From Physcia stellaris (taxonomy: Eukaryota > Ascomycota > Lecanoromycetes > Caliciales > Physciaceae), in contig JABSSW010000128.1 of NCBI GenBank assembly GCA_018902385.1, positions 1-20,308 of the forward strand: a stretch of DNA of 20,308 bases. Reading direction: 5' to 3'. The notes beneath the pieces are model-generated. The model ran no database searches. It was given only the letters and a program-made list of their open reading frames with translations, and was not told the DNA's origin. The translations under genes and the position numbers were made by a program. Below, one piece after another: positions 1-20,308 of this stretch (position 1 is the stretch's first letter; each line of letters starts with the position of its first letter).

Positions 1-544
1 CTGAAACAAAATTCGATTTCGTCAATTTTTGAATCGATTGCATTACGTCGTTTCACTTTAAAATTTTCTGCCGACGACACGTTTCAAAAATTTTTGTCTT
101 TGTCGTTCATTGAAGTTTTTTTGTATTTCATTTTTTCGATTGCGATCATCTGTTTATCGAACTGAAATTCAACAAGAACAATAACATTCAGCGTGTGATC
201 GAAATCGTCGATCAAATCGAATGAAACGAACGAATTGATTCATCGTTTGCTTTTTCGACACAGCAAACGCGTATCGAAATCGCATCATGACGATGTTTCG
301 ATTTTCGTTCACGATACAAAAAAAATAACGCAATGAATTCAACATCATATTCGCACAAAAAATTGATCACGATCATTTTTACGAACGCATTTAATCGTTT
401 ATTTTCGAAATTCAACAAATTTGCATTTGCAATCAATTTTACGATGTCGACGCGTTCAAAAATTTCATGTCGATGTGACAAAGACAAAAAAAGAATCGAA
501 CGAAATCAATGATCAATCAGAGATTTCGACAAACGAAAACGACG
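1..544. other. Gene-free AT-rich spacer
   Basis: I see no supportable gene here. The longest open stretch, on the minus strand at 212-487, is about 91 codons long. It has no Gly or Pro and no recognisable motif, so I treat it as chance openness caused by the scarcity of TAA and TAG. CC and GG are almost absent, but some CT and AG steps survive. Confidence 0.6.
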
Positions 545-571
545 AAAAAAAAAAAAAAAAAAAAAAAAAAA
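545..571 (+). repeat. Poly-A tract (27 A)
   Basis: This is an uninterrupted run of 27 adenines. It could be a simple slippage tract or the 3' tail of a decayed retroposed sequence lying upstream. No target-site duplication or reverse-transcriptase remnant was recognised next to it, so the retroposon reading is only a possibility. Confidence 0.9.
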
Positions 572-653
572 TCGAAAATGCGTTTGTCATAACTTAATAG
601 ATTAAAATTCCAATTGAGTTCAATTTTCATTTCTGTTCAACACATCATCACAG

Positions 654-893
654 TTCATTGCATTATTTATTTTGAATACATATCGTTTGCAAACAATGTG
701 TTCATTGCACTATTAATATTTATTTTGAATACATATCGTTTGCAAACAATGTGTTCATTGCATTATTTATTTTGAATACATATCGTTTGCAAACAATGTG
801 TTCATTGCATTATAATATTTATTCTGAATACATATCGTTTGCAAACAATGTCTTCATCGTATTTGATATTTCGTTTGCAAACAACATGTGCAT
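654..893. repeat. Tandem array A with GTTTGCAAAC palindrome (5 copies)
   Basis: GTTTGCAAAC occurs exactly at 685, 738, 785, 837 and 873, giving spacings of 53, 47, 52 and 36 bases. The unit runs roughly from TTCATTGCA through TTTATTTTGAATACATA to TCGTTTGCAAACAATGTG. The spacings vary and are not multiples of three, so the array is probably non-coding. The last copy carries AACATGTG, which links it to the arrays near 18.2 and 19.8 kb. Confidence 0.9.
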
Positions 894-2515
894 AATTGTT
901 CATGCTGATTGCGAAGCATCATGACGTGACGTACACGAAAAACTTTTTCTGATTTTTAGCGAAACATTCAAATATGAATGCAAAATGTTCATTTGAATGT
1001 TTTCATTTTTCAAATCATGTCGAAGTCGATTTGCTAAAATTTTTCAATATAAAATTTCGAATTCATCATCGATTCAATGATATTGTTCAAACTTATCGAA
1101 TTAAATTTTAATAAAAATTTTTCATTAACAAAGTTTTGCTCATACGTAATCGTCTGTTTGCGCACTGTAGACAACGTTGAATCACGAAATCAAATTGTCG
1201 TAATGATTTGCATCATTTATTGATTCATTCGTATCATTAAATTTTCGATTCAAAACGTCTTCAATGAAATTGACTTGAAATTGTTTTTTGTGACGACATC
1301 AAATCGTCTGATTTCAATTTCAGCATTTGATCGGACGAATCATTTAAAATTATTTTTTTGAAACGTTTTTCGATAATATTCAATTTGAAATTCATATGAA
1401 CAAAGTTCGAATATTTCCGAAAAACGTTTTCGAGTAAACTGATTTGAAAACATCAATCGTTTTCACATTTCATTTTGCATCATTAGCATTTTTCAAGAGA
1501 ATCACAACAATGAAATTCGCGCTTTTCAAATAACAATTTTTTTTTTTTTTTTTGATTTTTTGATCGAATCGTCATTAATATATCGTCGTTAACATTTTCG
1601 ACATTATCAGCGATTTTATTTCATTTTCGTGCACATTTCGAATTTTCAACATTTGTTGCTATTCACGTCACGAACATTTTGCGTTTTCATCTGAAAGACG
1701 CGTTTTTTTTTTTCACACGTCGATCGTTTAGACGATATTCGTTTTGACATTTTTTTTTATCGTTTGATGTCGTCAAGCGCGACAGCATCGTAACTGAATT
1801 CGCATCACAATGTTTTTGAATTTCATTTTATGTTCAGTTCACGTATACACATTTCGAATGTCAATCATCGCATTCTCGACAGTCAAACAAATAAGTTCAA
1901 AAATTCATGAAATGTATCAATGTTCATTGATATTTTATTTTAACTTTTTACGTCTACTATTTGAAAGATGTAGAAAAATCGAATGTCATGCTCATTTTCA
2001 TTCGAAATTCAATCACTCTATGAGAATTTTCGAGAGTTCGGGAAATTTTTTAGTTTGCACGTCATTTCATCATCAATTGCTTTCATGCGACAGCGTTTTA
2101 CAAAACATACAATTTTCGTGATTTTTGCGTCGTATATTCAACAGCGACGACAAGCATGAAAATCGCAACAATACGATATGTGTCGATTTCGAATCATTCA
2201 CACGTTCAGTTGAAAACTTAGACGAACATATTTCGTGTCGCATACAGAACATTTCACATTTTCAACGAATCGCGTCGTTCAATCGTTCGCGATGAAATGC
2301 GATAAAACGATTATTCAGTCACGATAATAACGACGAGCAATTTTTCGATTTTCATCGACATTCACGAAAACGTTGATGCGCGATTGCTGATTCGTTTTTG
2401 TGTCGATGATGAAATCATCACGAACTCAATTCGAATTTTCAAGACGATTGATTTTGACATAGAAACATAATGACGATTGATTTTTTCATGACGAAACTTA
2501 TTGAACGAAAGATTA
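894..2515. other. Gene-free AT-rich spacer
   Basis: No gene is supported. A plus-strand open stretch at 1810-2121 (about 103 codons) has a single Gly and no recognisable motif. There is a run of 17 T at 1537-1553. The same scarcity of CC, GG, CT and AG is seen throughout. I find no tandem array here. Confidence 0.55.
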
Positions 2516-2615
2516 GCATGTCAAATTGCAATGAATCAAAAAAATTTGAAAATCATTACTTTCTGCGTCGAAACGCGTTTTTGAAATTTATTTCGTAACA
2601 TTTTCGACAGATTGG

Positions 2616-3098
2616 ATGATTCACACATCGGCGACCATGCTCACTGATTTGATTTCTGATAAAGACAGATTTGACATTTCGATAAAACGAGACGCGAATT
2701 TTTCATCAAACGATTACAGACACAAAAGTATTTTTCGTTCGAAATTTTTTCGTGAACATTTGACATCATCAGTCGTCGTTTCATCACACGATCGGAAAAT
2801 TTACATTTTCGCGCGTTTCGATGTCGATTCATTTACGTCGAACGTTCAGATTGACAAAACGAAATTGACTGACATTGTCATTTGCGACGTCGAAAATTTC
2901 GAGTTATCGTTTGTCAATGTTCATTTGTCGATTTCACATTCATCTCAAAAATTTATTTCGAAAACTCAGTGTTTTCGATTGTTTTTTTGTTTTCGAACGT
3001 TTTCTCGTCGTTTTCGAACGATTTCTCGACGCTTCAAATTTTCAAACGCCGAATTCAATTTATCGTCAGTTCAGTTCGTCTCATCAGCAATCAATTGA
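2616..3098 (+). pseudogene. Possible fossil coding frame, unknown protein
   Basis: A plus-strand frame of 160 codons starts at an ATG at 2616 and has no internal stop. Counting TGA as a former Trp codon, the same frame has no TAA or TAG from 2517 to about 3527. I recognise no domain. The product is rich in Ser, Phe, Arg and Asp, and it lacks Gly and Pro as expected if GGN and CCN were mutated away. A 21-base tandem duplication at 2990-3031 stays in phase and encodes two seven-residue Phe-Arg-Thr-Phe/Ile-Ser-Arg-Arg repeats, which mildly favours past coding. TAA and TAG are scarce everywhere here, so openness alone is weak evidence. The frame could be a chance opening. Confidence 0.3.
2990..3031 (+). 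repeat. 21-bp tandem duplication
   Basis: Two adjacent 21-base units, 2990-3010 and 3011-3031, both begin TTTTCGAACG and differ at two positions. The length is a multiple of three and lies inside the open frame 2616-3098. Confidence 0.8.
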
Positions 3099-3441
3099 TC
3101 ACTCATTCATTCGCGACGATCTTCGAAACGAAAAGCGATACATTTCTTAAACGAATTTGAAATTTATCATCTTCATACAAATGCGCGTATTTGTTTAATA
3201 TTCGCTTTCGAATGACATTATTCTTCTTGATGAAATTGTCGGTCACATAGTTTTCGACAGCGATTTAACGTTTTTCTTTTTTCCGCAGACGACGACGATA
3301 TCTTGCATCTTGAAACGCAATTTCATGTAAATAAATTTGATTTGCCTGTCAAACGAACATCCGAAAAAAACAGTCGAAAAAAGAACAATCGAAAAATTGT
3401 CTGAACAAAAATAAATCTGTTTTCGAAACAACAAATTAATC

Positions 3442-3655
3442 GTTTGCAAACAACAGATTTAAAAATAAATATCGTCTGCAAACAACAAATAAAAAATAGA
3501 TATCGTTTGCAAACAACAGATAAAGAATAAATATCGTTTAAACGAGAATATCGTCTGCAAACAACAGAGAAAAAATAAATATGCAGAAAAATGAAAGATA
3601 ATGTAAATATCGTTTGCAAACAACAAACGAAAGTTAATGATATCGTTTTGCAAAC
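3442..3655. repeat. Array B: about 31-bp minisatellite with the palindrome
   Basis: GTTTGCAAAC occurs at 3442, 3505 and 3612. GTCTGCAAAC occurs at 3474 and 3553, a shortened GTTTAAAC at 3536, and an 11-base form with one extra T at 3645. The first spacings are 32, 31 and 31 bases, and each copy is followed by AACA and an A-rich AATAAATAT spacer. The period is not a multiple of three, so the open minus-strand frames across it only translate the repeat. The two GTCTGCAAAC copies keep one CT step that the other copies have lost. Confidence 0.9.
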
Positions 3656-3669
3656 GAACAAAAAAAATG

Positions 3670-6350
3670 TCGTTTGTCGACAGTCGTTATACAGAAAACA
3701 CTAACTTCGACATTTGTCATGATGATTTCTTCGACAATTGTCGATTAATGAATTCGGAAAATGTTTGTCATCGATGTCTGAACTTCGACTGATCAAAACG
3801 CTATTCTCGATTTCATGAAAAATAAACGTGAAAAAAGAAAACGATTGATCAGCAAATCAAACGTTCACCCATTCTCGTCGAGTGACACGCGTGCATCAAA
3901 GTTTCGCGCTAAAACACTTGATCGTTTTTAACGCGAACAATCGCTCATTTACAATCATGATGTGCTTTTACTTTATATTCGCGTGACTTCGTTATTGAAT
4001 GTGTTCGTTTAAATTGCACAAGCGTCAATTCTAATCGTCGCGTCCAGAACATATTGTTTGATCAGCACAACTTGTTGTTCAAACAATCGAAAATCAAAAC
4101 ACAATTCTAATTTTTTTTTTCACGCGATCATTTTGATCAATTGCGATTCTGATTTAAAACGATAAACACTTCGCGACATTCGAAATTCTTTCATTTGTAT
4201 TGCGCAATTTTATTAAAATCTCATCAGCAAAAAAAATTCAACGTTTGTTTCAAAACGTGCAAATCATTTAATCAACTTCATCGATTTCATTTTTCGCAAC
4301 GACGAAAAATCATTTTTGATGATTGAGACACAAATTCAACGATTTTTTTCGTTAAGCAAGCATCGATTCGCGTTGATGATAACGAAATACAAAATTGTTG
4401 AAAGTTTTGAATATCATTTTTCGCTTAATGCAATTGCTCGCTTTTTCTCATGCGGAAACGACACAAACAACGATTCAAATCATTTTTTCAAATCGCAATC
4501 AACGACGAACTTTCAATAATCCAAAACGTGTCGAAATTCACATTCGCGTCGATAATCTGGAATGTTTACACACACAATCGGCGAAAATGTATCAAATTTC
4601 ATGTCATTTCGCTTTTCTTCATTTTACGACAGACGAATTTTCAATGCCAAGACGAATAAACTCGTTCGACATGTACAAATTCACAGATTGATCAACACAG
4701 CGTCAAGTTTGATCGCATTCGTTCAATTTCTTTTTCGACAAATCGTTTTTTTATTCACATTTTTCTCAATCTTAAAACGAAACGTCTCATGACAGATGCA
4801 AATAGTCGTGTCGATAAATCAACGCGAAAAATTCTCAATTGAATCTTTTCGTCAAAATTATGTTAGCTATGATCAGAATCGTATCACGACGAGCATCGAA
4901 TTAATCGTATAAGTTCAAATTCATAAACGCGCACATCATCGACGATACGATCGTCACGAATCAACAATTTACATGGCGTTCAAAATTCGCGACATTTTCC
5001 AGAAATTTTTCGACATGACTTTCATATTTGTCAACGTCGAAAATGTCGACATAACAACGATTTTCAATTTGCGATGTTGAGATGCGATCGCGAACTGAAT
5101 TTGAATACATATTGTTTCAAGACGACGTTTTTATCAATTGTCGATCAATTGTATATTGTTTACAGACGACATGTTCAACGTAAAATTGAATGAAACTTTA
5201 AAGTTATGAAATTCACAACGAAGATGACGATTGATGAAGTCGCATTATTTCACATGAATATCGATGTTCGACGTGTGAATTTAAATCTCGAGATTGAAAT
5301 GAATAACTTGTCATGCAAAAACTCTCTGATAGTTTTGATTGATCGTTTCAGCATTCTGTAAATTGCTCGATTGTTTCAAATGATAAATGTCTGATATGTG
5401 ATTTAACGTCATTATTCGAATCTATTCGCAGTTGATAAACATCGTATAAAGTCACAAAACGAAATTGTTCAATATATTCAAAATGTTTTTATCACGTGAA
5501 CAATTACAGATTCTGATCATTTCGTTTTCGTAAACGATTTTTGTCGAAATAATTTGCATGATTGCAATGGCTTGATAATTTTTTTCTGTTTTGTCGTTTT
5601 TGTTTTCGTACGATTTTCATTCACGAATTATCATTTGTCATACAAATGATTTTTTCGTCATCTATTCAGTCAATAGTCGTCATTCACTTTTTATATGTGA
5701 TTTCAAATTTCAACTCACGATCAAATCGTTTCTTTTCAATCAATGTTATTTGAATTGATCAAATAAAATTCAACGCAAACGCGCGTTTTCGACGCGTTTA
5801 ACATCGAAAAACGTCAAAACATTCAACACAACGTCAACATCTTTTAATTTGCAATCTCGATTCACGAAATCGACAGCGTGTCATCATCGATAAATCAATT
5901 GACGCTCCGAATTCAATCAAACATGTTCGCGATTTTATTTGTTTTTGCAAAAACGTAAATAGTCTTCACGTTGTTTTCATAAATCAGCTAAATTATCAAG
6001 AAACACAATTGTTTCACGTCGAATCAGATTCACATCACGACTTCACGAGTTCGGAAACGAGCAAACGAAAAATTCAAACAATGAAAATTCTCGTTGTTGT
6101 CGACAAACATTCAATGACGTCATCTTTATTTTCGTCGATTTTCAACATTTCATGCAAAAATTTGTTCTCGTAATCGTGTTGCGAAAAACAGTCGAAACGT
6201 CGTCATTTCTCAGAAACGAGGAATTCACATGACGAAAACGACAAACTGTTTCAAACTCAATATCGAAATCAACATTTATAGATCGTTTGATTTCGATATT
6301 TCAAAAAGAAATCGTCGTCGTCACGAGTCATTCGCGTGTTATCAGTAATC
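3670..6350. other. Long spacer with no recognised gene
   Basis: I see no convincing gene in these 2.7 kb. The best open stretch, plus strand 4383-4691, lies downstream of a TAA at 4380. It encodes about 100 residues, keeps two Pro, and has no recognisable motif. A diverged copy of the palindrome repeat lies at 5099-5180. Stretches around 4.98-5.10 kb keep a handful of CC, CT and AG steps, so the mutation load is moderate. Confidence 0.5.
5099..5180. repeat. Diverged copy of the palindrome repeat
   Basis: The segment begins with TTGAATACATATTGTTT, matching the flank of array A units with one change. It also contains GTTTACAGACGACATGTTCA at 5158-5177. That half keeps CAGAC and ACATGT where other copies read CAAAC, so it may resemble the older form of the repeat. 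Confidence 0.6.
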
Positions 6351-6358
6351 CATTCAGA

Positions 6359-6840
6359 TTCAACAACGTCATTTTATCGAATGAAATTTGATCATCACGT
6401 TTCGAAATTTTTTTTTCTGATTTTTTTCATCATCATTCATCTCGACGTCGATTCATTTCGTCAACTGTCGAAAATGAAGAAAAAAAAAAATTCTGATATA
6501 GTTATTTCAAATTCTTCAACGTACATCGAATGAAATTTTTACTCGAGAATTTTTTTTGAAAGATGAAAAAGAAAAAAAAAAAATTTTGATATAATTATTG
6601 TCTGCAAACAAACTCAAACGCGCTAAAAGTTTCAACAACGTCATTTTCATCGAGTAAAGTCTGATCATCGCGTTTCGAGAATTTTTTTTGACTTTTCAAA
6701 CATATCATTCAATTCGATTTCAGATTTCTTTTTCGTTCATCGCTTTATTCAAGAAAGATGAAAAAAAAAATGAAAAAAAATTTTGATATAATTATTGTTT
6801 GCAAACAATCTCAAACGCGCTAATTTCAACGAAGCGACAA
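6359..6840. repeat. Interleaved long-unit repeats (about 200-270 bp)
   Basis: A segment starting TTCAACAACGTCATTTT occurs at 6359 and again at about 6630. A second segment, GATATAATTATTG followed by the palindrome and CAAACGCGCTAA, occurs at about 6588 and 6785, 197 bases apart. The first of these carries GTCTGCAAAC and the second GTTTGCAAAC. A partial third relative, TTCTGATATAGTTATTT, is near 6490. The pairwise differences that I checked are transitions, mostly at CT or AG steps. Confidence 0.75.
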
Positions 6841-7061
6841 CGATCTCGATTCGATTTTATTCAGCATATTTTCGATTTCGTTTTTCATTTCTTTTTTTTA
6901 TTTTTATTTTACATCTTCATCATATCAATCACTTTCGTTGATTCGATTCAGAATCACGTTTTGCTTTTGTTTTGCTTTTCGTTACGTTTATTATTTCATA
7001 CATCATCAACATACATACTTCTTGTTGCATTGAGCCGAAATCTGATTAATTGAAATCAATC

Positions 7062-7094
7062 TGATTCTGAAACTTCAAGTGAGTTTCAGAATCA
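7062..7094. other. Perfect 13-bp hairpin
   Basis: TGATTCTGAAACT (7062-7074) and AGTTTCAGAATCA (7082-7094) are exact reverse complements separated by the 7-base loop TCAAGTG. Both arms keep CT and AG steps that are rare elsewhere in the window. It lies about 110 bases upstream of the large fossil frame. It could be a terminator-like structure, a transposon-end hairpin or a chance inverted repeat. A CTAA follows at 7111, but the arrangement does not clearly match a Helitron end. Confidence 0.7.
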
Positions 7095-7201
7095 CATCGC
7101 TGAAATCACGCTAACGCGAAATCGCGATCAAATTTTATTCGTTCTAGCGTCGAAAATTTCTGTTTGCAGACGAAATTTTCTTGACGACATTTTTTTCATT
7201 C

Positions 7202-10200
7202 ATGTCGACAGCTGACAAAAAGCGCGTTTCTGTCGCAATCAATCTCGAAAATCGACTCGACAAGCGACGAAAAAAGACATTCAAGATTTTCGTCGATGAT
7301 CACGCCGATCGCGTTGTCGACGTTTCGAAATTCACGAACGCGAACATCAAAAACGCGATACAATACAATCATTCAGACGTTAAATTCGTGAAAAATCATG
7401 CAATACACGAGATCGCAAAAAAATTGACAGAATATTTCGACTTGAAAAACATCGAGAAATTCAAAATCATCGTCATCGACGATGAAAAATGCAATGTGAA
7501 TTTTTTGAAAATCTGAAAAATTGCTCGCGACGTCGCTTTCAGCATTTCGAATCAAAAAAATCGAATCATAAAATGATCATATTTTTTTTTTTGATACGAT
7601 TGACGAGACACAGAACAAAAATCTGAAATTGAATTTTGAAAAGCTAAGAATTTCGCTGTCGACGAAATTTCAAAAACAATACGTCAGATCTTGTTTTGAA
7701 CGATGACTATGTATCGATTGTTGCAATGCGAATGCGACATTGTCTTTAGACTCGTCGAAAAAATTCAGTCGAAACAGATTGATACACACTATGAATTCAC
7801 GATGAAGAATTGACATCGCGTTTATCGATTGCTGAAATTTTACGAGAGAAATTTAAGCGAAAAACGTGAAAAGAATCAGCGAAATCAAAACAATGTTTTC
7901 GTTAAATTTCGATTTTTCAATCAGACGCAATACGATTTTTACAAAATCGACAAACGCGCGATTCTGATTGTCACGAAAAATGCCGATAACGCGTCATCAT
8001 CAGATTTCACGATCGACAAAACTGATCAAGAAACAGTCGCGATCAAAATTCAAAAAAAAAAAGAAAATCGCACAGTGAACGACAGAGACTCGAACTCAAA
8101 TCAAGAATTTTTCACGTTTTCTCAACGCTCTCATCGCGATGTCAAAGCAGTATTTTCAACGAGTTGACGACAATCTAAGCAAAAATTCACAACTGATCAA
8201 TGCGAACAAGCGAGAACTCGACTTCGACAATTTTCGCAATTTTCTTTCGCGTCGCGAATTGAAAATGTTGATAAAAATTTTTTTAACGCATATGTATTGT
8301 TGCATTTTCAATCAAAATCGAATGAATTCAACATTGTATCGTTTATCGAGAAATTGACGATCGTTTTTTTCAAAATCAACGTTTTTTCAGATGACGAAAA
8401 AAACATCGTCGTGAAACGTTTCATTTTAAAAAAAATCAACGTCAAAAAACTCAACGTCGAAATGAAAAACAAAAATCGCGCAAATTTTTGAAAATTGCGA
8501 AACGACATGAACAAAATGATTGCAATCATTTTCGATTACATGAAATTTTGCGAAATCATTGAAATCGACGTCAATAAATCGTTGTTTTTCGATCATTGAA
8601 TCGAACAATCATTTTCAATTTGCGAATTCAAAAAACATCAAATCATCTATTTAACATGAAAGAAAAAATTGAAAACACAATTGAAATCAAATATGCTTTG
8701 TGACGAAATGAAATTGAACAAAATTTGTTCGATTTTTTCGTTGATTGCGTTGAACGTTTTTCGCAACGACGCGTTTCGTTTTGAAAACGATTCACATATT
8801 CTCGTGTTTGCAAATCAAATTCATGAAAACATTGCGTTTGCAAACAAATTTCTCGTTCATGAAAACATTGCGTTTGCAAACAAATTTTTCGTTCGTGAAA
8901 ACATTTCGTTTGCAAACAAATTTTTCGTTAATGAAAACATTTCGTTTGCAAACAAAATCATCATTCAAACAAATTTTTCGTTTGCAAACAACAATTTTTT
9001 TCAATTTCAAATCATCATTCAGACAAATTTTTCGTTTGCAAACAACAATTTTTTTCAATTTCAAATTATCATTCAGACAGATTTTTCGTTTGCAAATTAC
9101 AATTTTTTTCAATTTCAAATCAAAAACAAAAACGAAATATTCAGCGAAAATGAAAAGTTGATTGAAATAATCGAAAAATTAAGAACGAAAAAATACAAAT
9201 CGATTTTGATATTGATTTCGTTCGTCACGTTTTTCGTTTGATTTCGAAAAATCGCAAAGTTTTTTTCGTTTTTCATCGTGAAACATTTCAACGACAGTTC
9301 ACACACGGACACTTTGGCGAAGAGAAATGCAACATTGAACATTTCTGTTCGAAATTTTCTGAAATACATTCAGAAAATATCGAATATTTCGACGATCATG
9401 TTTCATGTCATTTTTTCGTCGTTCAATACGATTGTTGTTCGCATCAAATATTTGATTAAAAATGTCAATTTTTTCGAAACGTCGAATTCAATCGTGAAAA
9501 TCGAACGCGAAAATGAGAAAAACGAAATGATCGACAATCATGCGACGAAAATCATTGATGAAAACGAATTGATCAAATACAATTTTCACGAAATCGACGT
9601 TTTTCACAAAATCATCATCGACGAAATTCAAAAAATCAAAAATTTCGTTATTCACATCAATCGATTGATTCAATTATACGTCGTTTCTCGACGCATTTTG
9701 TTTATCGTCACGTTCATGATCAATCGTGTCGACGACATGTTGAATTTTTTAACAATCATGTGAATCGTTTCGTGAAAAAATATTAAATTTCTCGAAAGCA
9801 ATTATAACATTCGTTTTTATTCGAAAGTCAAAAATCGTTTGATGAACAAACGATTGAAAACGAAAACGATTAAAAATTATCGATGAATGTTAAATTCGAC
9901 GAATTTCAAAAAATTTTGCAAATCAATCGCGATGAAAAATATTTTGAATTTCGACATTGTTCATCGCATTGTTTTCGACATTTTGAATTTTGTTTTTTTT
10001 CGTCGAACGTTTGCTTCTAAAATGATCAACGTGAAAGGCGAAAACATTCGAATTGACGTTCATCTATTTCACGAAATGTGAATGAATGTGAAACTGACGT
10101 CAAAGTCTGTTCAGAAATCGATTTACGCGACGATTCATGCTAACAATTTTCATTTGCTGAGTAAAAACTACGACGAAACGACGAAAACGAAACGTCGCAA

Positions 10201-10318: not shown

Positions 10319-10330
10319 CAAGATAAACAT

Positions 10331-10651: not shown

Positions 10652-10693
10652 GTTTTAACGATCAATATTCGTTTCGATAATTTGAAATTCAAT

Positions 10694-11149: not shown

Positions 11150-11397
11150 TTATTTCGCGATATCATCGACATCAAACGAAAATCGCAAACGTTCGCGAAA
11201 AACAAATTATTGTTTGCAAACTATATTTATTTTTTTATTGATTGTTCTAGATCGAAGTCGTCAGAAAAAAAAACAAACAACGCGACAAAAAAAAAACGCG
11301 TTTGCAAAAGTCGAAATTTGAAATCGCGATTTCGATCAAAAAACGTCAAAATGATGTCAAATCGAATAAACACGTTTTTTTCACGAACGATGAAAAC

Positions 11398-11434
11398 TCG
11401 TTTGAAAATTCGTTTGAAAATTCGTTTGAAACAT
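11398..11434 (+). repeat. 12-bp tandem repeat, three copies
   Basis: TCGTTTGAAAAT is repeated twice and followed by TCGTTTGAAAC. In one plus frame the repeat reads Asn-Ser-Phe-Glu three times. The 12-base period is a multiple of three, but the surrounding frame is short, so coding is uncertain. Confidence 0.8.
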
Positions 11435-11447
11435 CGAGCGATAAAAA

Positions 11448-12119
11448 TTGTATGAAACATTTTTTTCTCGATCGTCATTTTTTCGATTGAACGCATTGTT
11501 TGCAATCACATCATCATCGCAACGAATTTCGAACGACGCAAATCAATCATCGACGTTTGAATACGCGCATTCATCGCAATCGATGTTGACGACGCGCACG
11601 TCGTCGTCGATTTCAATCAATTTCGAACGATCGAATTTTTCGTCAATTTTTGACGTTTTATCATTTTTCGATCACGACGTCGAAATCGATAACGTCGTTC
11701 ATTTGCAATTTTTCGATTTTTTCGTTGATGCATCGAATTTCGCAATCGAAAACAATGCAATTGAAAACAATGAAATTTTTTTTTTTTTGTTCATTTTCAA
11801 TACAAATTATTTTTCATCAAGTTTTTTTTTCGTTTGATGAAATGTAATTTGCAAACAACAACTTTTTTTTTCGATGTTGATTCAAAATTTTGCAAATAAT
11901 TTCGATGAATTTGATCAATCACGAAATTTTTTCAACAAATTTGCATTCAATTTATCGTTTTCGTCGTTTTCGTTTGCGCAAACGTTATCATTCATTTTTT
12001 TTCGACGCATCAACAATTTTCGTCGTCGACGAATTTCGATTTCGATTCGCGATTCAATTTTCGATTCAATTCGCGAATCGCGTCGAAACAATAAAAATCG
12101 AATTTTTCGTCGAAATTGA
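11448..12119 (+). pseudogene. Possible fossil frame, Ser-rich then Phe/Arg-rich, unknown
   Basis: A plus-strand frame is open from 11448 to a double TGA at 11835-11840 and continues from there to a TGA at 12117-12119 without TAA or TAG. The first third is rich in Ser from TCG and TCA codons. The middle is acidic with Phe. The last part holds clustered Arg with repeated Arg-Asp-Ser-Ile sequences. There is no Gly, Pro or TGG. The interval 12001-12120 has no CC, CT, AG or GG step at all, so it is saturated for the inferred mutation and little original sequence can survive. No domain was recognised. It may be chance openness, because stops other than TGA are rare here. Confidence 0.25.
11847..11856. 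repeat. Isolated palindrome variant ATTTGCAAAC
   Basis: A one-base variant of GTTTGCAAAC followed by AACAAC, the flank seen in most other copies. Another single exact copy is at 11212-11221, and a near match GTTTGCAAAA is at 11300. Confidence 0.6.
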
Positions 12120-12123
12120 AAAT

Positions 12124-12240
12124 CATTTTTTTCGTTTGCAAATTACATTTTTTTTATTGCGTTCATTTTTTTCGTTTGCAAATTAAATTTTTTTTATTGC
12201 GTTCATTTTTTTCGTTTGCAAATTACATTTTTTCTATTGT
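12124..12240. repeat. Array G: exact 40-bp tandem repeat, three copies
   Basis: GTTTGCAAAT occurs at 12134, 12174 and 12214, each 40 bases apart. The units are nearly identical, consisting of ATTTTTTTCG, the palindrome variant, TACATTTTTTTTATTG and CGTTC. Copy two reads TAAATT where the others read TACATT. The near identity suggests recent amplification. The period is not a multiple of three. Confidence 0.9.
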
Positions 12241-12366
12241 TGATGAAACAATTTATCAATGATTTTTTTCGAACGATAAAATGTCGTTTGAAACATCATT
12301 TTGTGTTTTTCGTGCTCGTTTGTTGACGAATGAAAAACGTTTTATGTGAAACTGAATTTCGATTGA

Positions 12367-12575
12367 CATTTTCGAAATGAATCATTGCACAACGAAACGA
12401 ACATTCGTGTTCAACGTTTCAAATCTTTTCGCTTAATTATCGTTTCGAATTTTAGAAAAATTGAAATCTGTTTGTCATTTTCGAAATGAATTATCGCATA
12501 ATGAAACGAATTTAAAATTCAATATTCATTATTTTTTCATTTAGTTATCGTTTCAAATATCAAACAATGATTCGA
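12367..12575. repeat. Direct duplication of about 105 bp
   Basis: CATTTTCGAAATGAAT occurs at 12367 and 12476, 109 bases apart. The similarity continues through GCACAACGAAACGAA in the first copy and GCATAATGAAACGAA in the second, down to the TTATCGTTTC that follows in each. Many differences are C/T transitions. I see no coding frame here. Confidence 0.7.
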
Positions 12576-12630
12576 ATCATTTTCACATTTTTTTTTCGTG
12601 TTCAAGTTGTGATTGTTTAAATGTCAAAAT

Positions 12631-12673
12631 TCGAATGATATATTATATTATACATTTTTTATATATTATTCGA
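12631..12673. other. Imperfect inverted repeat in TA-rich DNA
   Basis: TCGAATGATATATT at 12631-12644 pairs with TATATATTATTCGA at 12660-12673 at 12 of 14 positions across a 15-base spacer. The TA-rich sequence is unusual for this window, where TpA is otherwise sparse. Confidence 0.5.
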
Positions 12674-12815
12674 TGAAGTTTTCGCGTCAATTTGATCGCT
12701 CGTGTATTTTTTTTTTTTTTGTTTCGTTTTTTTGATTAATCAAAATTGATTTCATTGATTGAATTATGTTTTTGATTTGAAATCAAATATTTTGTCTTGT
12801 GATTTTTTTTTGATT

Positions 12816-12887
12816 ATTGACATGTTCATGCATATTTTATCAATCGTAATTTTTTTTGACAATTGACATGTCGATGCATATCAATCG
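12816..12887. repeat. Short direct duplication, two copies
   Basis: ATTGACATG followed by ATGCATAT and ATCAATCG occurs at 12816-12846 and 12862-12887. The second copy is five bases shorter. The T-rich lead-in is also shared. Confidence 0.7.
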
Positions 12888-13319
12888 TTGAATCAAATCA
12901 ATTGTCGTCGTGAAATTTACAATTGTTCGTTTGAGACGCATTTTGAAATTCTTTCAAAAATTCGATCAATTCAAAAAAAAAGCAAATTTACGAATTCGTT
13001 CGTTGATTATAATTAGAATCAAAAAAATTGTAAATGTCGCGAATTTGAACATCGAATTGAAACGATGACGTTGATGATTTTATTTTAAAAACGAACGAAC
13101 AACGACGTAAATCATCGTCGTGATACATGAAAACATTATCGAAATTAATGAAATTTTCAATTGTTCGTTCGAGAAACGACTTGATTGATCAAATTGCTTT
13201 TTTTTTATTGTATTTTCAATTGTCGTTTCTTTTGCTCGTTTCGAAACTCGAACGAATTAAAGAAAATTTTGACGATAATCGTTTCATTTTCAACTCATTG
13301 AATTACAATAAATAAATAT
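12888..13319. other. Spacer without a recognised gene
   Basis: No gene is supported. One 62-codon plus-strand open stretch at 13127-13315, from an ATG to a TAA, has no recognisable feature. Confidence 0.5.
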
Positions 13320-13679
13320 TTGACGTGCGATTCATTTTTAAATTTTACAATTTATCAAATTTATTTTTATCATTTCATTGATTCAAAAGTTTGTTTTACG
13401 AATGTATTTGTTTATTATCGCATTGATTGTCTTTTTTTCATCAAAACACAAATTGATTTGTCACGAAATATATGTTTTTTTTCGTTCATGCGTTCAATTA
13501 TTTACACGTTTATCGCAATTTCATTTCACTGTTTATGTTTTGAAAACTCTGTAGCGAATCTGAAACAACTGAATTGTATTTCAAAAAATGACGAACTTTT
13601 TCAAACGAAAATTCTTGAAAACTCGAATTGTTCAACTGAAAACGCGTATTCGCGAAACAAAAATCGAAATATAAAATGA
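13320..13679 (+). pseudogene. Open frame of about 119 codons, unrecognised
   Basis: This plus-strand frame opens with TTG rather than ATG and ends with TGA. It is rich in Phe, Ile, Tyr, Asn and Cys, with no Gly, Pro or Trp. I see no signal peptide that I would trust and no motif. It may be a fossil coding fragment or chance openness. Nothing in the neighbouring sequence supports a role. Confidence 0.15.
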
Positions 13680-14479
13680 AAAAACAAAACATTTCAAATA
13701 TCGTATCGATCATAAAAATTGTAATAAAAAATACGAAACTGTCATTTCACGCGTTTCTAAATAAAAAAACAACTTTATGAAAATTTACACGTCATCGAAT
13801 CAAAATGAGCAATTTCGCAATCGCGATGACAAAAATCAATAGTTCAAACGCAAATTCGATCAAATGATTCAAAAATTCGTTGTTACGAATCAAATCAATG
13901 AAATTCTTGAAAAATTTCAATGATTTCGAAAAAATGACAAATTCATGAACGTTTTCGTTGACTCTATTTCAAAAATGAACGTTTGAAAAATTTGCTCAAC
14001 ATTTCAAAAATGTGAAAATCGAAAACGATGATTTGAATGATGTTTGAAACTTTTGAAACATTCAACAAAACGCAAAAACAAACGCATGAATATTTCATTC
14101 GTTTTGAAAAAAAAAACAGCGATCACGTCGCTGAAAAATTATTCACAAAATGTGATTTCATTGTCGTTTGAATGTAATTGCATTGTTTTTCGAAACGATT
14201 GACGACGATTTTGAAAAAAACAAATTCAACAAAACGTTATGAATCGAAAATTATCATTGTCGAATTTGAAAAAATCAAATTTCAACAATTTGCGCGTTTT
14301 GCGAATGATCGTTCACAATCGAATATATATCGAAAACACGCAAAAACGAAAATTACAAATTGTCAAAAGATGTGCAAACTGAAAAAAATAAATTGAATCA
14401 TTATCAGTTTTGTTTGCAATTCATTTTTTAATTAATTGTCTCGACGAACGAAATGAGTTTTATCATTCGTTCATGTACG
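13680..14479. other. A-rich spacer without a recognised gene
   Basis: No gene is supported. The plus strand is A-rich with many GAAAA and CAAAA runs. A 72-codon open stretch at 14178-14396 has no recognisable motif. Confidence 0.5.
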
Positions 14480-15010
14480 AAAACAATTCGAAAAGCGAAA
14501 AATGTTTCGAACGACGAAAAAAAAATCAAAATCAACAATTACAAACAGAATATCATTTCGATCGCAAGTGAAATAAAATTGCGAAATGAATTGAAAAAAA
14601 AAAAAAAAAATTGCAATCAGAAATGCGAATTGTAATCGTTCTTGCAGATTAGAAATATCATTTCGATCAATGAAAAAAATTTTGTTCGTGCATTTTTGCA
14701 AATTGACAATCTTGTTTTTTGATCGTTCGCAAAACGAAAAACGTTTCGAACGACGAACGAAAAATCAAAATCAAAAATTACAAAACGAAATATCATTTCG
14801 ATCGCGAATGAAAAAAAATTGCGAAATAAATTGAAAAAAAAAATGTCATCACGATGTTCATTTTTGCAAATTAACAATCAAAAATTTTGTTTTTGCGAAT
14901 TGACAGTTTTTTGATCGTTCGCAAAACGAAAAACGTTTCGAACGACGAACGAAAAATCAAAATTCAAAATTACAAAAATTTCGATCAATGAAAAACAAAA
15001 AACGACGATT
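14480..15010. repeat. Imperfect long-unit repeat, three copies
   Basis: A segment with GCGAAAAATGTTTCGAACGA, then CGAAAAATCAAAATC and AATTACAAA, occurs with its GTTTCGAACGACGAA core at 14504, 14743 and 14935. Spacings are 239 and 192 bases. Copies one and two share the downstream ATATCATTTCGATCGC and AAATTGCGAAAT; copy three is shortened. Copies two and three share the upstream TTTTTTGATCGTTCGC. Short frames on both strands only translate the repeat. Confidence 0.8.
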
Positions 15011-15318
15011 GTTGATCGAAATAATCAAAACATCGATTTCATAAAGTTACAAAAAAAAAATGAAAAAATTGTTCGTTTCATGATTGAATATTTGTACATC
15101 ACAAAGTACATTGATGAATACAAAAAATCGATGAATTTTTGTGTCAATCGATTGAAAAACGTTTGATCACGATATCGAACAATCGTGTTATTTTGACGTT
15201 ACTTTATCGATTATTTATCAAAAACGCAAACGACAATGCGTCAAAATCAACAACAACGATACAATGAACAAATGAAATGAGTGATAAAATTGACACATCG
15301 TTATCGCAACAAAATATA

Positions 15319-15429
15319 ATTTGCAAACAACATGTTTTTCGTTTTCGCATTGTTTGCAAACAATACGTATCGATAATGTTTGCAAACAATATATATCGAT
15401 AATCATTTTTCTAAATTTTGTTTGCAAAC
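15319..15429. repeat. Array H: palindrome cluster, four copies
   Basis: ATTTGCAAAC occurs at 15319 and exact GTTTGCAAAC at 15352, 15378 and 15420. Spacings are 33, 26 and 42 bases. The last copies are followed by AATATGTATCGATAA or close variants, related to the ACATGTATACGATAA flank of the array near 18.2 kb. Confidence 0.88.
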
Positions 15430-15821
15430 AATATGTATCGATAACGATTTTTGATTGTTGTTGTTGCATTGACGTTTTCAAATTTGACGTGATTATTGTT
15501 CGAACAATCGATTGTTTATGATTTTATAATCATTTGACAATCATTTTTTCATGATTTGATTGCGACAATTGAATGTTCGATTAACATTCGTTTATCATTT
15601 GAATAAAAAATAATCGTTACGTTGTTCACGATTGTGATTTATTTATTTTGTTCAATCATTTCGAATTTGTCTCGTTTCAAACGTTAACGCAATTCTTTTT
15701 CAATTTTATTTGTCTTTACAATGAAAACGTATTTTGCTAAAAATGATAAAATGTTTATCTGTCGAGAAAAAAATATTCGTCGAAAAATGAAAATTTTTGT
15801 CGTGCGCGATCGACATTTTCA
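15430..15821. other. Spacer with small palindromes
   Basis: No gene is supported. ATTGTTCGAACAAT at 15494-15507 overlaps AACAATCGATTGTT at 15503-15516; both are perfect palindromes. GAATGTT and AACATTC at 15571-15589 form a 7-bp stem. Confidence 0.55.
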
Positions 15822-16448
15822 ATGATTTCGATAAAAACGTCGCAAACGAATGATTTTTTAAACAATCGTTATACGAATATGTTTGCGAACGAAAACAAAA
15901 ATAAATTTGAAAAAATGAAATGTGATGACGAATTGACAACAAAAAAAAATGAAAAAAAAAATGAAATATGCAACGAGAATGTTCAATCGAAATCAAACAT
16001 CGTTGAACAAATTTCGATGACAAAAAAAAATTTCGACATCAATATCAAACGAGTTTCGTGCGCAAAAAATATCAATTATATATCATCGAATATCGTTTGA
16101 TAATTGATTGTCGTTTAATGTTTCGATTTGATTATCGATCATTCATCAACATTTAAAAAAAATATTTTCGTTATTTCGTTTTCATCGTCGATTGTTTCGA
16201 ATTTTTTCAGCACTTTTTCGAAACTGAAATTTTTGTTTGTTGTTTTCGAATCTTCTTCTTTTTTGAGTTTGATTTCGAAATCAAAAATATTTATTTCGTC
16301 GTTGTCGTCGCGATTCTTTATTCGCAAAATGATGTCATCTTTTTTTGTTTTTTCGCGATTCGATTTGAATTCGTATTCTATTTTGAAAACAAAATACGAA
16401 CATGTTTCGTCGATTCAACGAACTCATCATAAAGCGATGATCGCGTAA
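15822..16448 (+). other. Low-complexity open frames, coding doubtful
   Basis: Two plus-strand openings in the same frame, 15822-16100 and 16128-16448, are separated by TGA and TAA. The first is Lys, Asn and Glu rich; the second is Ser and Phe rich. Neither has Gly, Pro or Trp or any recognisable motif. The opposite strand is open over much of the same interval. They may be fragments of a decayed gene, but I cannot support a product. Confidence 0.2.
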
Positions 16449-17060
16449 GCGAACAAACATTTTCTGTTTTTCGAAAGAAAATTCGATATCAATTGAATCA
16501 AAATCAATCAAAAGAAACGAAAAACACAAAAAATTCTCGAACGCAAAAAAAAAAGAAATTACAAACGAATGATGATCAAAAATAAACAATCATTGTCGAA
16601 ACAATTAAAACACAACATGTTGCGATGTTTCAAATGATCGAAAATGAAAAAAACGTCGTTAAATCACAATTCGTAAATTCTTTTGTTTTCGTTGAAATAA
16701 CGAGAAACGATTGATTTTTGTTGTTTTGATTTTTTCAATTTATTTACGAGTTTTGTTTGCTATATATTTGCTATATATCGATGATTATACATTTTTAATC
16801 TGAGCGACTTTTGATGATTCAATTCGAAATGTCTGAATATTACATTGATTAATTAAATCACGCGTCATACGTTTATTGTCACATCGCAAGACTATGTTTT
16901 AGAATAAATCAACTATGATTTGATAAAAAGCTGTGAACTACTATTCATCAAAAAAAAAAATGATTGAATTTCGTACGCATTAAATGCGTATCTTTTACTA
17001 TATATCAGATTGAATACATAATTTAACTTCATCGAAATTCAATTTTATTTGTCGATTCAG
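16449..17060. other. Spacer with TA-rich 11-bp duplication
   Basis: No gene is supported. TTGCTATATAT is duplicated in tandem at 16757-16778. From about 16.8 to 17.0 kb, CT, AG and TA steps are more frequent than in the core of the window, so this stretch is less affected by the inferred mutation. Confidence 0.55.
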
Positions 17061-17073
17061 ATTTGAATCATCG

Positions 17074-17427
17074 TTGATCGATTATCATGCAAATTTCACA
17101 AACGCGTCAAAAAAGACGCGTGCTCGAGAAAATATTATTCAAAATATGAAAATCGTTGAACTTTTAAGTTTCAAGAATTGTCAAATTTTCTCGAAAAAAA
17201 TATCATTCAAGAAATTCCTGACCTTTATGACTGAAAAATTTCCCGAGACGATGAAGATGATTTTGAAAAACATATTCAAAAAAAAATGCTTCGATCTACT
17301 GACAACGATTTTACCGAAAAAGAAAAAAAAAAAACAGCAAATCAAATCGCTCGAAATGAAACTCGAAAAATCAAAAAAACAAATCAACTCAATCGTCAAT
17401 AATGTCGTTTTCATCATTGACAAATGA
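17074..17427 (+). pseudogene. Moderately preserved fossil frame leading into the coiled-coil repeats
   Basis: A plus-strand frame of 117 codons ends in TGA at 17425. It keeps two Pro, several Leu and more CC, CT and AG steps than its surroundings (about 14 in 17161-17280). The chain is Lys, Ile and Phe rich. Near residue 80 it has a run of Lys, followed by an alternating Glu/Lys/Leu stretch that is the first unit of the repeat at 17330-18045. The last third could form a coiled coil. Downstream units are not spaced in multiples of three, so a continuous protein is broken there. No family was recognised. Confidence 0.3.
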
Positions 17428-18045
17428 TGAAAAAATACAACATCAAATCGAGATGAAACTTGAAATGAAAAAAACAAATCGAATCAAACGACTCGAAATG
17501 AAATTCGAAATCAAAAAAATCAATCAATTCAATCAACAACAATGTCGTTTTCATCTTTGACGAATGAAAAAATACAACATCAAATCGAAATGAAACTTGA
17601 AATGAAAAAAACAAACCGAATCAAACGACTCGAAATGAAACTCGAAATCAAGAAAATCAGTCAACTCTCAACAATGTCGTTTTCATCTCTGACGAATGAA
17701 AAAAATACAAATTAAAATCGAAATGAAACTTGAAATCAAAAAAACAAGCCGAATCAAACGACTCGAAATGAAATTCGAAATCAAAAAAGTCAGTCAATTG
17801 ATCAAAAATAATGTCGTTTTCATCATTTGACAAATGATGAAATACAACATCAAATCGAAAAAAACTTGAAATCAAAAAAATCAATCAACTCAATCAAAAA
17901 TAATGTCGTTTTCATCATTGACAAATGATGAAATACAACATCAAATCGAAATGAAACTTGAAATCAAAAAAACAAATCAGACGAAACGACTCGAAATGAA
18001 ATTTGAAATCAAAAAAGCAAAATCGAATAAAATTTCGAAATGTTC
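17330..18045 (+). repeat. Imperfect tandem repeat of about 92-140 bp, five junctions
   Basis: The marker AATGTCGTTTTCATC occurs at 17401, 17541, 17673, 17810 and 17902, with spacings of 140, 132, 137 and 92 bases. Each unit carries GACAAATGATGAA or GACGAATGAA, ACATCAAATCGAAATGAAAC, CGACTCGAAATGAAA and a Gln/Asn-rich tail. When translated, a unit reads as a Lys/Glu/Met/Ile-rich helix of coiled-coil character. Unequal unit lengths shift the frame between units, so the array is not now coding as a whole. Confidence 0.88.
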
Positions 18046-18139
18046 GCGACGAAAACAATTTCAAATGAAAACAAAAAATGAATAAAACAAAAAACTTTTC
18101 AAATTCGCTGATTCGAATTCAACTAATTGAATTCAAAAT

Positions 18140-18249
18140 TATACATGTTGTTTGCAAACAACATGTATACGATGATGTCGTTTGCAAACATCATGTATAC
18201 GATAATATCGTTTGCAAACATCATGTATGCGATAATGTTGTCTGCAAAC
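18140..18249. repeat. Array I: exact 30-bp palindrome array, four copies
   Basis: The palindrome core starts at 18150, 18180, 18210 and 18240, exactly 30 bases apart. The first three are GTTTGCAAAC and the fourth is GTCTGCAAAC. Spacers read AACATGTATACGAT and close variants. The first copy is the centre of a perfect 30-bp palindrome at 18140-18169, with left arm TATACATGTTGTTTG and the right arm its exact complement. A short plus frame at 18078-18326 translates the array as a 10-residue repeat with Val-Val-Cys-Lys, but I consider coding unproven. Confidence 0.93.
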
Positions 18250-18276
18250 ATAATGTATACGTTGAAATGTTAACTA

Positions 18277-18332
18277 TATATATTCATTTCACATATAATT
18301 CATCTATATATTCATTCTGCATATAATTCGTC
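18277..18332. repeat. 28-bp tandem duplication
   Basis: TATATATTCATT followed by CATATAATTC occurs at 18277-18304 and 18305-18332. The copies differ at four positions, all transitions. Confidence 0.8.
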
Positions 18333-18445
18333 TGTCGATTACAGTCATTTATTGCATTCATGTGATTCGGAAAAAAAAACAAACTTTTGATATTCAACGA
18401 ATAATTCAACTGAACGAATTTGATTGATTGTTCTGTTTTCATAAA

Positions 18446-18469
18446 CGAATTCGATTTCGAATTCGATTT
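18446..18469. repeat. 12-bp tandem repeat
   Basis: CGAATTCGATTT occurs twice in tandem and is followed by CGAAATC. Confidence 0.75.
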
Positions 18470-18720
18470 CGAAATCAAAACATCGCGAAAATTCGAAATG
18501 AACGTTTCGATTCGTCAACTGAAAATCGCATCAAAATGCAAGCGACTTCGCGAAGACAAATATCGTCATGCATCAATCGTACTTTGAAAACGAACAGCGA
18601 AAAAATCGTCAAATCTGCGCATGTCGACAAATTACACCCGTCTCTGACGAGGCATTATTGCAAATCGAAAACATGCTGATTTTTATGCTGTCCGGTTTTT
18701 CATGCTGATATAAAAATGAA

Positions 18721-18740
18721 TGCATTGCAATTGCAATGCA
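18721..18740. other. Perfect 20-bp palindrome
   Basis: TGCATTGCAATTGCAATGCA is its own reverse complement over 20 bases. It shares a central TTGCAA-like theme with the dispersed palindrome but is a different sequence. A binding site for a dimeric protein or a hairpin is possible; the function is unknown. Confidence 0.8.
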
Positions 18741-18863
18741 CTTTTCATCAAAACAAATGTCGTCGTTAAGTGATTGCATTCTGAAACAGATCGAATATCG
18801 AAAAAATCTCAAGCGTCTCGAAAAGCGCGGCGAAACGATGACGATCGAGACATATGTTGTTAG

Positions 18864-19412
18864 AATGTTACAAAACGAAAATGAAAACAATCACAAATTC
18901 AATTGTTTTATTGTCAGCGTCAACGTCGACTTGTCGGCGCTTGTATCGGCGTTGTCGCTGTCATTCAGATCGCGAACAATTATCATTATTTTGTTCTTGC
19001 TGACTGTTTTGTTTTTAGATATTCAACATATTTCAATCATATCATAAAGCGTCTTATTACATATAAAAATTCATCTCATTTGCCAAATAATGAAAGCACC
19101 CAATTTTTTTCGATGATTTTTCGTGAGAACTTCGGCCAACATCTGCTTAGATCTGAACAGTCCAAATTGAAATTGATTCGTCTTTGCAGCAAGAATTTTC
19201 ATGAAGCGACTGTATTATGTTTTCAAATGTGAGTCTACATGTTGCTGATCGATATGCGGGATTTGAGATTGCAAGAAACTGATGCCGATTCAAATGAGTT
19301 GCATTCGTTACAAGTGATTCTTAAAAAAGTCGAACGACGATTTGAATATTTAGTAAATGGGGCATTTGAAAAATCAAATCTGGCTCTCGATTTTAATTTG
19401 TGCCGAAAAAGA
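18864..19412 (+). pseudogene. Best-preserved fossil frame, unknown protein
   Basis: A plus-strand frame has no TAA or TAG from 18864 to beyond 19412, only TGA at 18882, 19230 and 19410. Unlike other frames in the window it keeps normal Gly, Pro, Leu and Ala content, including Leu-Val-Gly-Ala-Cys-Ile-Gly and Leu-Pro-Asn-Asn. CC, GG, CT and AG steps are common (about 12 in 19261-19380). No start codon is obvious. The TGA at 19230 overlaps GTGAGT at 19229, with a CTGAT and an AG at 19275 downstream, so a 47-base intron is conceivable; however, splicing there would bring an early stop in this frame. The middle reads as amphipathic helix. An overlapping frame at 18736-19047 ends in a hydrophobic segment. 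I recognise no family. Confidence 0.35.
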
Positions 19413-19581
19413 TGAAAGTTTAATTTTGATATTGAAATCTCGTGATGAGATTACTTTGAGTAAAAATGACACGAATAGAAAATCAAGCGCGCTAAAAATC
19501 TATCGTTCGATAACAGAAAAATCGCAGATTGAAATAAACGGTCTGCCGAATGAAATTTTTATTCCTAACTTGACATTTTAA
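19357..19581 (+). pseudogene. Short open frame after the preserved fossil, unknown
   Basis: This 74-codon plus-strand frame starts at ATG 19357 and ends with TAA. It keeps Gly, Pro and Trp codons, so it lies in the lightly mutated stretch. It overlaps the end of the frame at 18864-19412 in a different phase. It could be the continuation of the same gene after a frameshift or intron, or a chance opening. No motif was recognised. Confidence 0.25.
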
Positions 19582-19769
19582 GATTTCAAATGATGTTATT
19601 TTTAAACCAAAAGTGATGACATAAGTCGAAAATCAATAAGTAAAAAACTGATCGTTCTGATGTTTGTATCAGGACATTGGTATCAATTCCAAAACGAACA
19701 TAAATCAATAGAACAGTTTTCAATTGCTCGTTCAAGTTAATTTGTCATGACAAGCAAAATGTTGTTTGC

Positions 19770-19857
19770 AGACAACAGAACAAATATATTTGCAAACAAC
19801 ATGTGTAAATATGTTTGCAAACAACATGTATAAATATGTTTGCTAATTGATCGTCAC
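19770..19857. repeat. Array J: about 25-bp palindrome cluster
   Basis: GTTTGCAGAC at 19774, ATTTGCAAAC at 19798, GTTTGCAAAC at 19823 and a truncated GTTTGCTAAT at 19848 have spacings of 24, 25 and 25 bases. Flanks read AACATGTGTAAATAT or AACATGTATAAATAT. The first copy sits in TGTTGTTTGCAGACAACA (19770-19787), a palindrome with a single mismatched pair, where the right arm keeps AG and the left arm has TT in place of CT. Confidence 0.88.
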
Positions 19858-19859
19858 GT

Positions 19860-20308
19860 TGATAATATCAGCGATGTTTCATGATTCAATTGTTTATCTA
19901 TAATCGCTGATGTGATTTTAACTCGTATTTTTCCTTACGCTCGGCGATATATTGCTGAAAAAGATTGAAACATCGATTTAAAACATCGATTTCGATATTT
20001 CAAATCTCATCAAGTCATCGTGCAATCGTGCATAAGCAATGCTCAATCGAGCAATTCTTTATATTTTGAGAAAATATATTACATCACACGCATTTTGATT
20101 TTACGCTCAATATCAAGTTCAGCTGAACAATACAACAACAGCGAGAAAACAAATAAAACGAAAACGTACATTTCGGAAATTGCGTCAGATTCAAGTGGAG
20201 ACGAACATGAATAATTTCGCTGTTGATCACGATATCATGACAATTGTCAAATGACAAGAAATTGCGAATTTTGTTATGTTTGATTTCATCGAAAAATTGC
20301 AATTTCGA
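19860..20308. other. Spacer without a recognised gene
   Basis: No gene is supported. Open stretches on each strand at 20020-20302 are 64 to 72 codons long and overlap each other. The plus one keeps one Gly and has a Ser/Glu/Asp-rich end but no recognisable motif. Confidence 0.5.

Follow-up and report, generated by a model that had tools for sequence, protein, structure and literature searches.

Contig C128 of the Physcia stellaris genome assembly (GCA_018902385.1; JABSSW010000128.1), whose full 20,308 nucleotides we analysed and refer to as the window, most probably consists of repeats from a filamentous ascomycete, altered by a process resembling repeat-induced point mutation (RIP), with C-to-T change following the order CpC ≥ CpT >> CpA > CpG. 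The loss of cytosine before C or T (CpY) marks AT-rich DNA that carries repeats, is absent from DNA of normal guanine-plus-cytosine (GC) content and from one pair of unmutated retrotransposons, and in one case continues into the flank of a repeat. The assembly comprises 43,974,083 bases on 147 contigs, of which the window is one complete contig.

Cytosine loss in the window

Dinucleotide counts over the window gave observed/expected ratios of 0.08 for CC, 0.09 for GG, 0.35 for CT and 0.34 for AG, next to 2.83 for CG, 1.30 for CA, 1.19 for TG and 0.33 for TA. These values bear out the initial annotation, which had described CC, GG, CT and AG as depleted and CG, CA and TG as abundant. The loss is present in every full 2-kb block, with CC never above 0.31 and CT never above 0.52. 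It is weakest for CC in block 18001–20000 (0.31, versus 0.00–0.12 elsewhere), and CT reaches 0.52 in that block and in block 6001–8000. Positions 1–18600 form a heavily mutated AT-rich tract, with CC/GG almost gone and CT/AG at about one third of expectation. The right end (18601–20308) is more mildly mutated and holds 33 of the 79 CC/GG dinucleotides of the window; 34 lie within the final 1.94 kb. A hand count over the forward strand of 9541–9660, in which every C precedes A or G, proved exact on recount: 22 C (13 before A, 9 before G) and 13 G (9 after C, 4 after T). The TGG-to-TGA change that had been noted is equally visible, with 23 TGG and 1387 TGA over both strands of the window versus 2840 and 3088 in 80 kb of normal-GC DNA.

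The annotation had also stated that CpA is kept, and this part stands: CA accounts for 0.067 of all dinucleotides in the window versus 0.070 in normal-GC DNA. Its use of low TpA as evidence on the target does not, because TA makes up 0.039 of window dinucleotides versus 0.045 in normal-GC DNA, and its low observed/expected ratio arises from a rise of T and A while TA stayed near its normal-GC frequency. The corresponding fractions for CG are 0.067 and 0.053. Across eight AT-rich stretches sampled from the genome, TA ranges from 0.036 to 0.072 and is raised in some, with CG at 0.046–0.072 and CA at 0.054–0.069. One of them, L038 (C2:1-10000), falls to a GC content of 0.14 around 4001–5000 with TA up (134 per kb), which CpY conversion does not produce by itself.

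Simulated conversion of normal-GC stretches comes close to the composition of the window. Complete CpY-to-TpY conversion yields a GC content of 0.246. Partial conversion at rates chosen by eye (CpC 0.97, CpT 0.7) yields GC 0.290, CC 0.05, CG 2.52, CT 0.40, TA 0.36 and TC 1.47, to be compared with strand-symmetric window values of 0.307, 0.08, 2.82, 0.34, 0.33 and 1.47, respectively. Rules converting CpA alone, CpA and CpT, CpG alone, or any C misfit the window.

Target preference in aligned repeats and against older states

The main context count comes from a multi-copy segment on the forward strand of the window (2–8252), shared with C10, C31, C91 and C147 with differing ends and with high-scoring segment pairs (HSPs) of at least 1 kb at ~82–94% identity. 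The segment continues at 7101–13396 (forward strand) in common with C10, at 95% identity over 7101–11900 and 93% over a longer HSP (6359–13396). The five copies gave 15 alignments of at least 1.4 kb, whose pairs are non-independent. C/T differences affect 117 of 126 CpC sites (93%), 2719 of 3498 CpT sites (78%), 890 of 10810 CpA sites (8%) and 403 of 10987 CpG sites (4%), and transitions exceed transversions in all 15 alignments (for example 474:33, 415:57 and 549:73). Within CpT, the base 5′ of the cytosine makes no difference, the differing fraction being 0.77 after A, 0.76 after G and 0.79 after T.

Two further pairs behave alike. Two copies of a 6.85-kb dispersed element, L044 and L071, aligned over 4.9 kb, differ at 65 of 87 CpT, 49 of 579 CpA and 17 of 619 CpG sites, with no CpC left and transitions to transversions at 162:47. 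The pair L065/L066 differs at 89 of 106 CpT, one of one CpC, 14 of 301 CpA and 11 of 409 CpG sites (133:24). Evenness of C-to-T change over all contexts, which had been named as a finding that would speak against a CpY target, is therefore not what aligned copies show: CpC and CpT are strongly favoured. In a second family (three stretches, five alignments at 68–84% identity), one of one CpC and 206 of 238 CpT sites differ.

In 8 of 14 alignments (p<0.05), sites at which a given copy carries the T come in blocks, as in C10/C147 with 62 runs versus 129 expected; the other six show no such blocks, as in C31/window with 132 runs versus 133. Strand patches among residual CT/AG sites were considered as a further trace and set aside: L039 gave p 0.022, yet three normal-GC controls deviated also. 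Changes private to the C91 copy (L049, C91:8001-18000) number 86 at CpA, 30 at CpT and 12 at CpG, while the other four copies have 6–26 at CpA.

The direction of change was read from two comparisons with an older state. A 5.8S search that scored 39 of 2644 candidates reported no intact ribosomal DNA (rDNA) and a single match, L058 (C41:44399-47552), a dispersed rDNA copy with heavy mutation. We compared it with Rfam consensus sequences at conserved positions of three hand-picked stretches: the whole 5.8S, positions 1–453 of the large-subunit model, and 132 columns of the small-subunit model. At strongly conserved positions, C-to-T change affects 22 of 24 CpC, 14 of 29 CpT, 0 of 21 CpA and 0 of 28 CpG sites, with 193 of 196 A and T retained. 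All positions of the same stretches give a weaker contrast in the same direction (CpC 82/121, CpT 53/84, CpA 7/73, CpG 18/98). The second reference is a homologue of parts of the window on C36 (L063, C36:65811-69120), of normal composition with a GC content of 0.476. It aligns with the reverse strand of the window at 8453–8847 (63% identity) and 9115–9455 (68%). With C36 taken as the older state, the two alignments together show change to T at 52 of 66 CpC, 66 of 84 CpT, 10 of 108 CpA and 12 of 82 CpG sites.

The same relation appears in a short word. Both strands of the window together hold 56 occurrences of TTTGCAAAC (1.45 expected), and the C36 homologue carries TCTGCAGAC; we read the former as the CpY-converted form of the latter. 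One of several arrays lies on the forward strand at 8806–9122, with others, listed without strand, at ~664–897, 3430–3662, 12123–12242, 15314–15452, 18145–18264 and 19759–19843. Counted with the search word T[TC]TGCA[AG]A, which fixes the central TGCA and so is silent on its survival, unconverted, half-converted and converted words number 3/7/6 in C31, 0/6/38 in the window and 0/4/17 in a second C10 stretch (L060). Only converted words were found in the copies on C10 (L040, 17), C91 (L049, 18) and C147 (L052, 14), and 80 kb of normal-GC DNA holds eight such words altogether. In L063 itself, TCTGCAGAC forms a Ser-Ala-Asp coding repeat; a Pfam search of three of its frames gave no family above cut-off.

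CpY as the C-to-T target, the central claim of the annotation, is thus upheld by composition, pairwise repeat alignments, two polarised comparisons, simulation and a negative-control repeat pair described below. The rule is refined in two respects: CpC is more completely mutated than CpT, and some copies have a weak CpA component.

Distribution in the genome, a spared pair and spread into a flank

We sampled 17 stretches of the genome, non-randomly, several having been picked because they end a contig, sit on a small contig or were already known to carry repeats. Eight are of normal GC content (0.48–0.52), with CC at 0.90–1.00 and CT at 1.00–1.10; eight are AT-rich (GC 0.22–0.33), with CC at 0.00–0.04 and CT at 0.05–0.44; one is mixed. 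Among eight interior places chosen blind to content, seven are normal-GC and one, L044, is mixed. The normal-GC stretches are without gene annotation, and each holds 2–11 stop-free frames of at least 150 codons. The same depletion in gene-rich DNA, the other observation that would have counted against a CpY-targeted process, was not seen in any of these eight or at three methyltransferase gene loci (CC 0.93–1.00, CT 1.04–1.05). Seven of the eight AT-rich stretches have long similarity to another sampled contig.

The negative-control pair consists of two retrotransposon copies, L067 (C5:1163582-1166869) and L068 (C12:57372-60659), which are 95% identical over 3.3 kb, of normal composition and unmutated. 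L068 encodes reverse transcriptase, RNase H and integrase by Pfam, and the frame of one copy is broken relative to the other. Their differences fall about evenly over contexts (CpA 19/411, CpC 24/464, CpG 26/422, CpT 33/405), with a CpY versus CpR (cytosine before a purine) odds ratio of 1.2 (p 0.36), and over 1464 bases compared, 71 differing codons are synonymous and five are not. This even spectrum speaks against a background CpY bias.

Spread beyond a repeat was observed at one boundary. Positions 1–6852 of L044 match 20 other places over at least 1.9 kb at 88–94% identity (21 of 221 candidates scored), and among the 34 listed matches besides its own place none extends beyond 6874. CC/GG dinucleotides number 0 in 7001–7900, one in 7901–8000 and eight in the following 100 bases; CT/AG dinucleotides per 100 bases from 7001 number 0, 0, 1, 1, 3, 5, 3, 4, 10 and 9, then 18; and GC content rises from 0.27 to 0.48 across ~200 bases near position 8000. 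The mutated tract extends ~1.1 kb past the repeat end, with CT loss fading with distance, the uniqueness of this flank being that of the 21 of 221 candidates scored.

Proposed mechanism, rival explanations and known systems

We propose that a RIP-like process acted on repeated DNA, changing C to T on both strands with a 3′ C or T setting the target. The 3′-base specificity would come from a C5 cytosine methyltransferase in the RID/DIM-2 group, and the process would have operated around the time of sexual reproduction, like RIP. The genome holds three such methyltransferase genes (four matches, two of which are exons of one gene), whose methyltransferase domains look intact. L055 matches PDB 9bap, an entry with a generic name that we take to be Neurospora crassa DIM-2, at E 2e-181, with its best stretch at query positions 220–905 and a second at 2–177. 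With homology both inside and beyond the methyltransferase domain, L055 is, judged by its sequence, a DIM-2-type protein. L054 (C6) and L056 (C5) are 40% identical over 174 residues of the methyltransferase region and have PPCQ and GNAVPP motifs; we presume from motifs that they are RID-like. Genes of the RID and DIM-2 types mark the genome almost certainly as that of a filamentous ascomycete. These two diverged genes differ in build, one being short and the other having a long N-terminal part. Both stop codons within the L054 match sit in stretches read by eye as introns, with motif X after them. We consider it rather likely that a RID- or DIM-2-class enzyme has here changed its 3′-base specificity and prefers CpC/CpT in place of CpA, which would make this an undescribed type of RIP that standard indices miss.

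Measured against the usual marks of RIP, the process works like RIP and departs from one of them, the CpA target. C-to-T change predominates in all 15 five-copy alignments and in L044/L071 and L065/L066, and does so weakly in the second family. Four repeat families and the rDNA copy are mutated, and all eight normal-GC stretches and the three methyltransferase gene loci are spared, with L067/L068 and L038 as exceptions, and limited spread into adjacent DNA was found at the L044 boundary. A CpA preference with TpA product was not found (CpA 8%, CpC 93%, CpT 78%; TA/AT 0.33).

Several observations weigh against a RIP-like process with this target. An unmutated pair at 95% identity is unexpected under efficient, currently active RIP. 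Among the sampled stretches, L038 found no match except to itself, over 400 bases, which leaves its status as a repeat unsupported. The second family carries much additional non-CpY change: 260 of 1114 CpA and 211 of 1265 CpG sites also differ, giving a smaller contrast, and its transitions to transversions are 498:249, 94:83, 230:284, 145:128 and 135:171, so that transversions are near or above transitions in four of the five alignments and above them in two. The private CpA changes of the C91 copy suggest that this copy is older or that a weaker second target exists. Fifteen of the 29 conserved rDNA CpT sites survive unchanged, and strand-wise clustering of differences was found in none of 14 alignments at p<0.05.

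The strongest rival is slow deamination, in which a DIM-2-like enzyme would methylate the CpY sites of repeats in vegetatively growing cells, the 5-methylcytosine then decaying to T over time without any premeiotic mutator. A DIM-2 homologue is present, unmutated repeat copies exist, and Neurospora DIM-2 is described as CpT-preferring (PMC13297926). The near-complete loss of CC, ending within ~200 bases beside normal DNA, and the blocking of the T-carrying copy in 8 of 14 alignments point the other way, neither being decisive, and we regard this rival as unlikely. It shares enzyme class and target with the RIP-like process, and the probabilities of the two need not add up to one.

A general mutation bias or drift of non-coding DNA, independent of repeats, would fit two observations: most sampled AT-rich stretches end a contig or belong to a small one, and L038 has no demonstrated repeat elsewhere. 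It is very improbable in view of the even spectrum of L067/L068, albeit one of mostly synonymous change in coding DNA, and of the eight normal-GC stretches without loss. We give as little credence to, and reject, an APOBEC/AID-type cytidine deaminase that would attack cDNA or repeat DNA in single-stranded form: C-to-T changes in repeats would be its product, but the 5′ base has no effect on CpT (0.76–0.79) and both strands are hit about equally. An APOBEC_N search found no match in this genome and none in any control genome either, and is uninformative. Canonical CpA-directed RIP that looks altered through exhaustion of CpA targets has a precedent in published alignments that can be dominated by CpT when TpA/ApT already stands high, as in Colletotrichum truncatum families at ~1.6 (PMC6180176), and is rejected as next to impossible here, being contradicted by the normal CpA and unraised TpA frequencies of the window and by the rDNA, in which none of 21 CpA sites changed. 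Decay of methylated CpG was rejected with CpG spared, and assembly error with the pattern recurring on many contigs.

Among known systems, the RIP-like process proposed here is closest to RID-dependent RIP of N. crassa, with which it shares C:G-to-T:A change on both strands of repeats, AT-rich tracts bordering normal DNA, extension into neighbouring sequence (one case here), a DIM-2-like gene and, presumably, RID-like genes. In Neurospora, the order is CpA>CpT>CpG>CpC (PMC5496416), whereas the order found here puts CpC at the head and leaves CpA nearly untouched. CpT-biased RIP in Magnaporthe, Botrytis, Sclerotinia, Ascochyta, Anisogramma and Colletotrichum shares the CpT-to-TpT change, but there CpA is hit as well or TpA stands high beforehand (PMC4352252, PMC4835772, PMC10998396, PMC6180176); the term CpC is absent from the main text of these four papers. 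Repeats of Stagonospora nodorum, in the RIPCAL paper, are depleted in CpC and GpG as here, but also in CpA and TpG, with TpA the sole riser and CpA-to-TpA change dominant (PMC2621366). The CpG-type bias of basidiomycetes (TpCpG in Microbotryum; Rhizoctonia) shares C-to-T change, for Microbotryum in transposable elements, and favours CpG, a context avoided here (PMC4352252, PMC4014442). RIP-mutated rDNA pseudogenes of filamentous ascomycetes are likewise dispersed rDNA copies bearing mutations, with a CpA bias and, in N. crassa, raised CpT (PMC5555474), as opposed to CpC and CpT here.

A survey of 1,239 genomes gives CpA preference as common to RIP-like defences (PMC12543289), CpT-to-TpT is named as one dominant change where sequences of RIP-capable fungi are aligned, with RIP tracts given a product index of 1.6, that is, high TpA (PMC7882544), and indices of the TpA type are given in PMC5602860. 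We saw no CpA-sparing CpC/CpT signature in the search listings and selected passages of the open-access literature covered. The standard RIP indices of the window are 0.33 and 1.39 and miss the thresholds of ≥0.89 and ≤1.03, so standard scoring would call it unaffected. Purified RID is reported to have no detectable methyltransferase activity (PMC13297926), and a near-inverse natural preference would supply enzymes to compare on how RIP picks cytosines. Under a strict CpY rule, TGG becomes the stop TGA, Gly and Pro codons change, and TAA and TAG are never made from sense codons; with TGG the sole sense codon able to become a stop, dead DNA can retain long open frames.

Searches of the window found no Rfam match at the gathering threshold and no tRNA, and of four open reading frames submitted to Pfam, three gave matches below the curated cut-offs only and one gave none. 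Elsewhere in the genome, a MAT alpha-box match is present, and CCCTAA telomere repeats stand at the start of C1.

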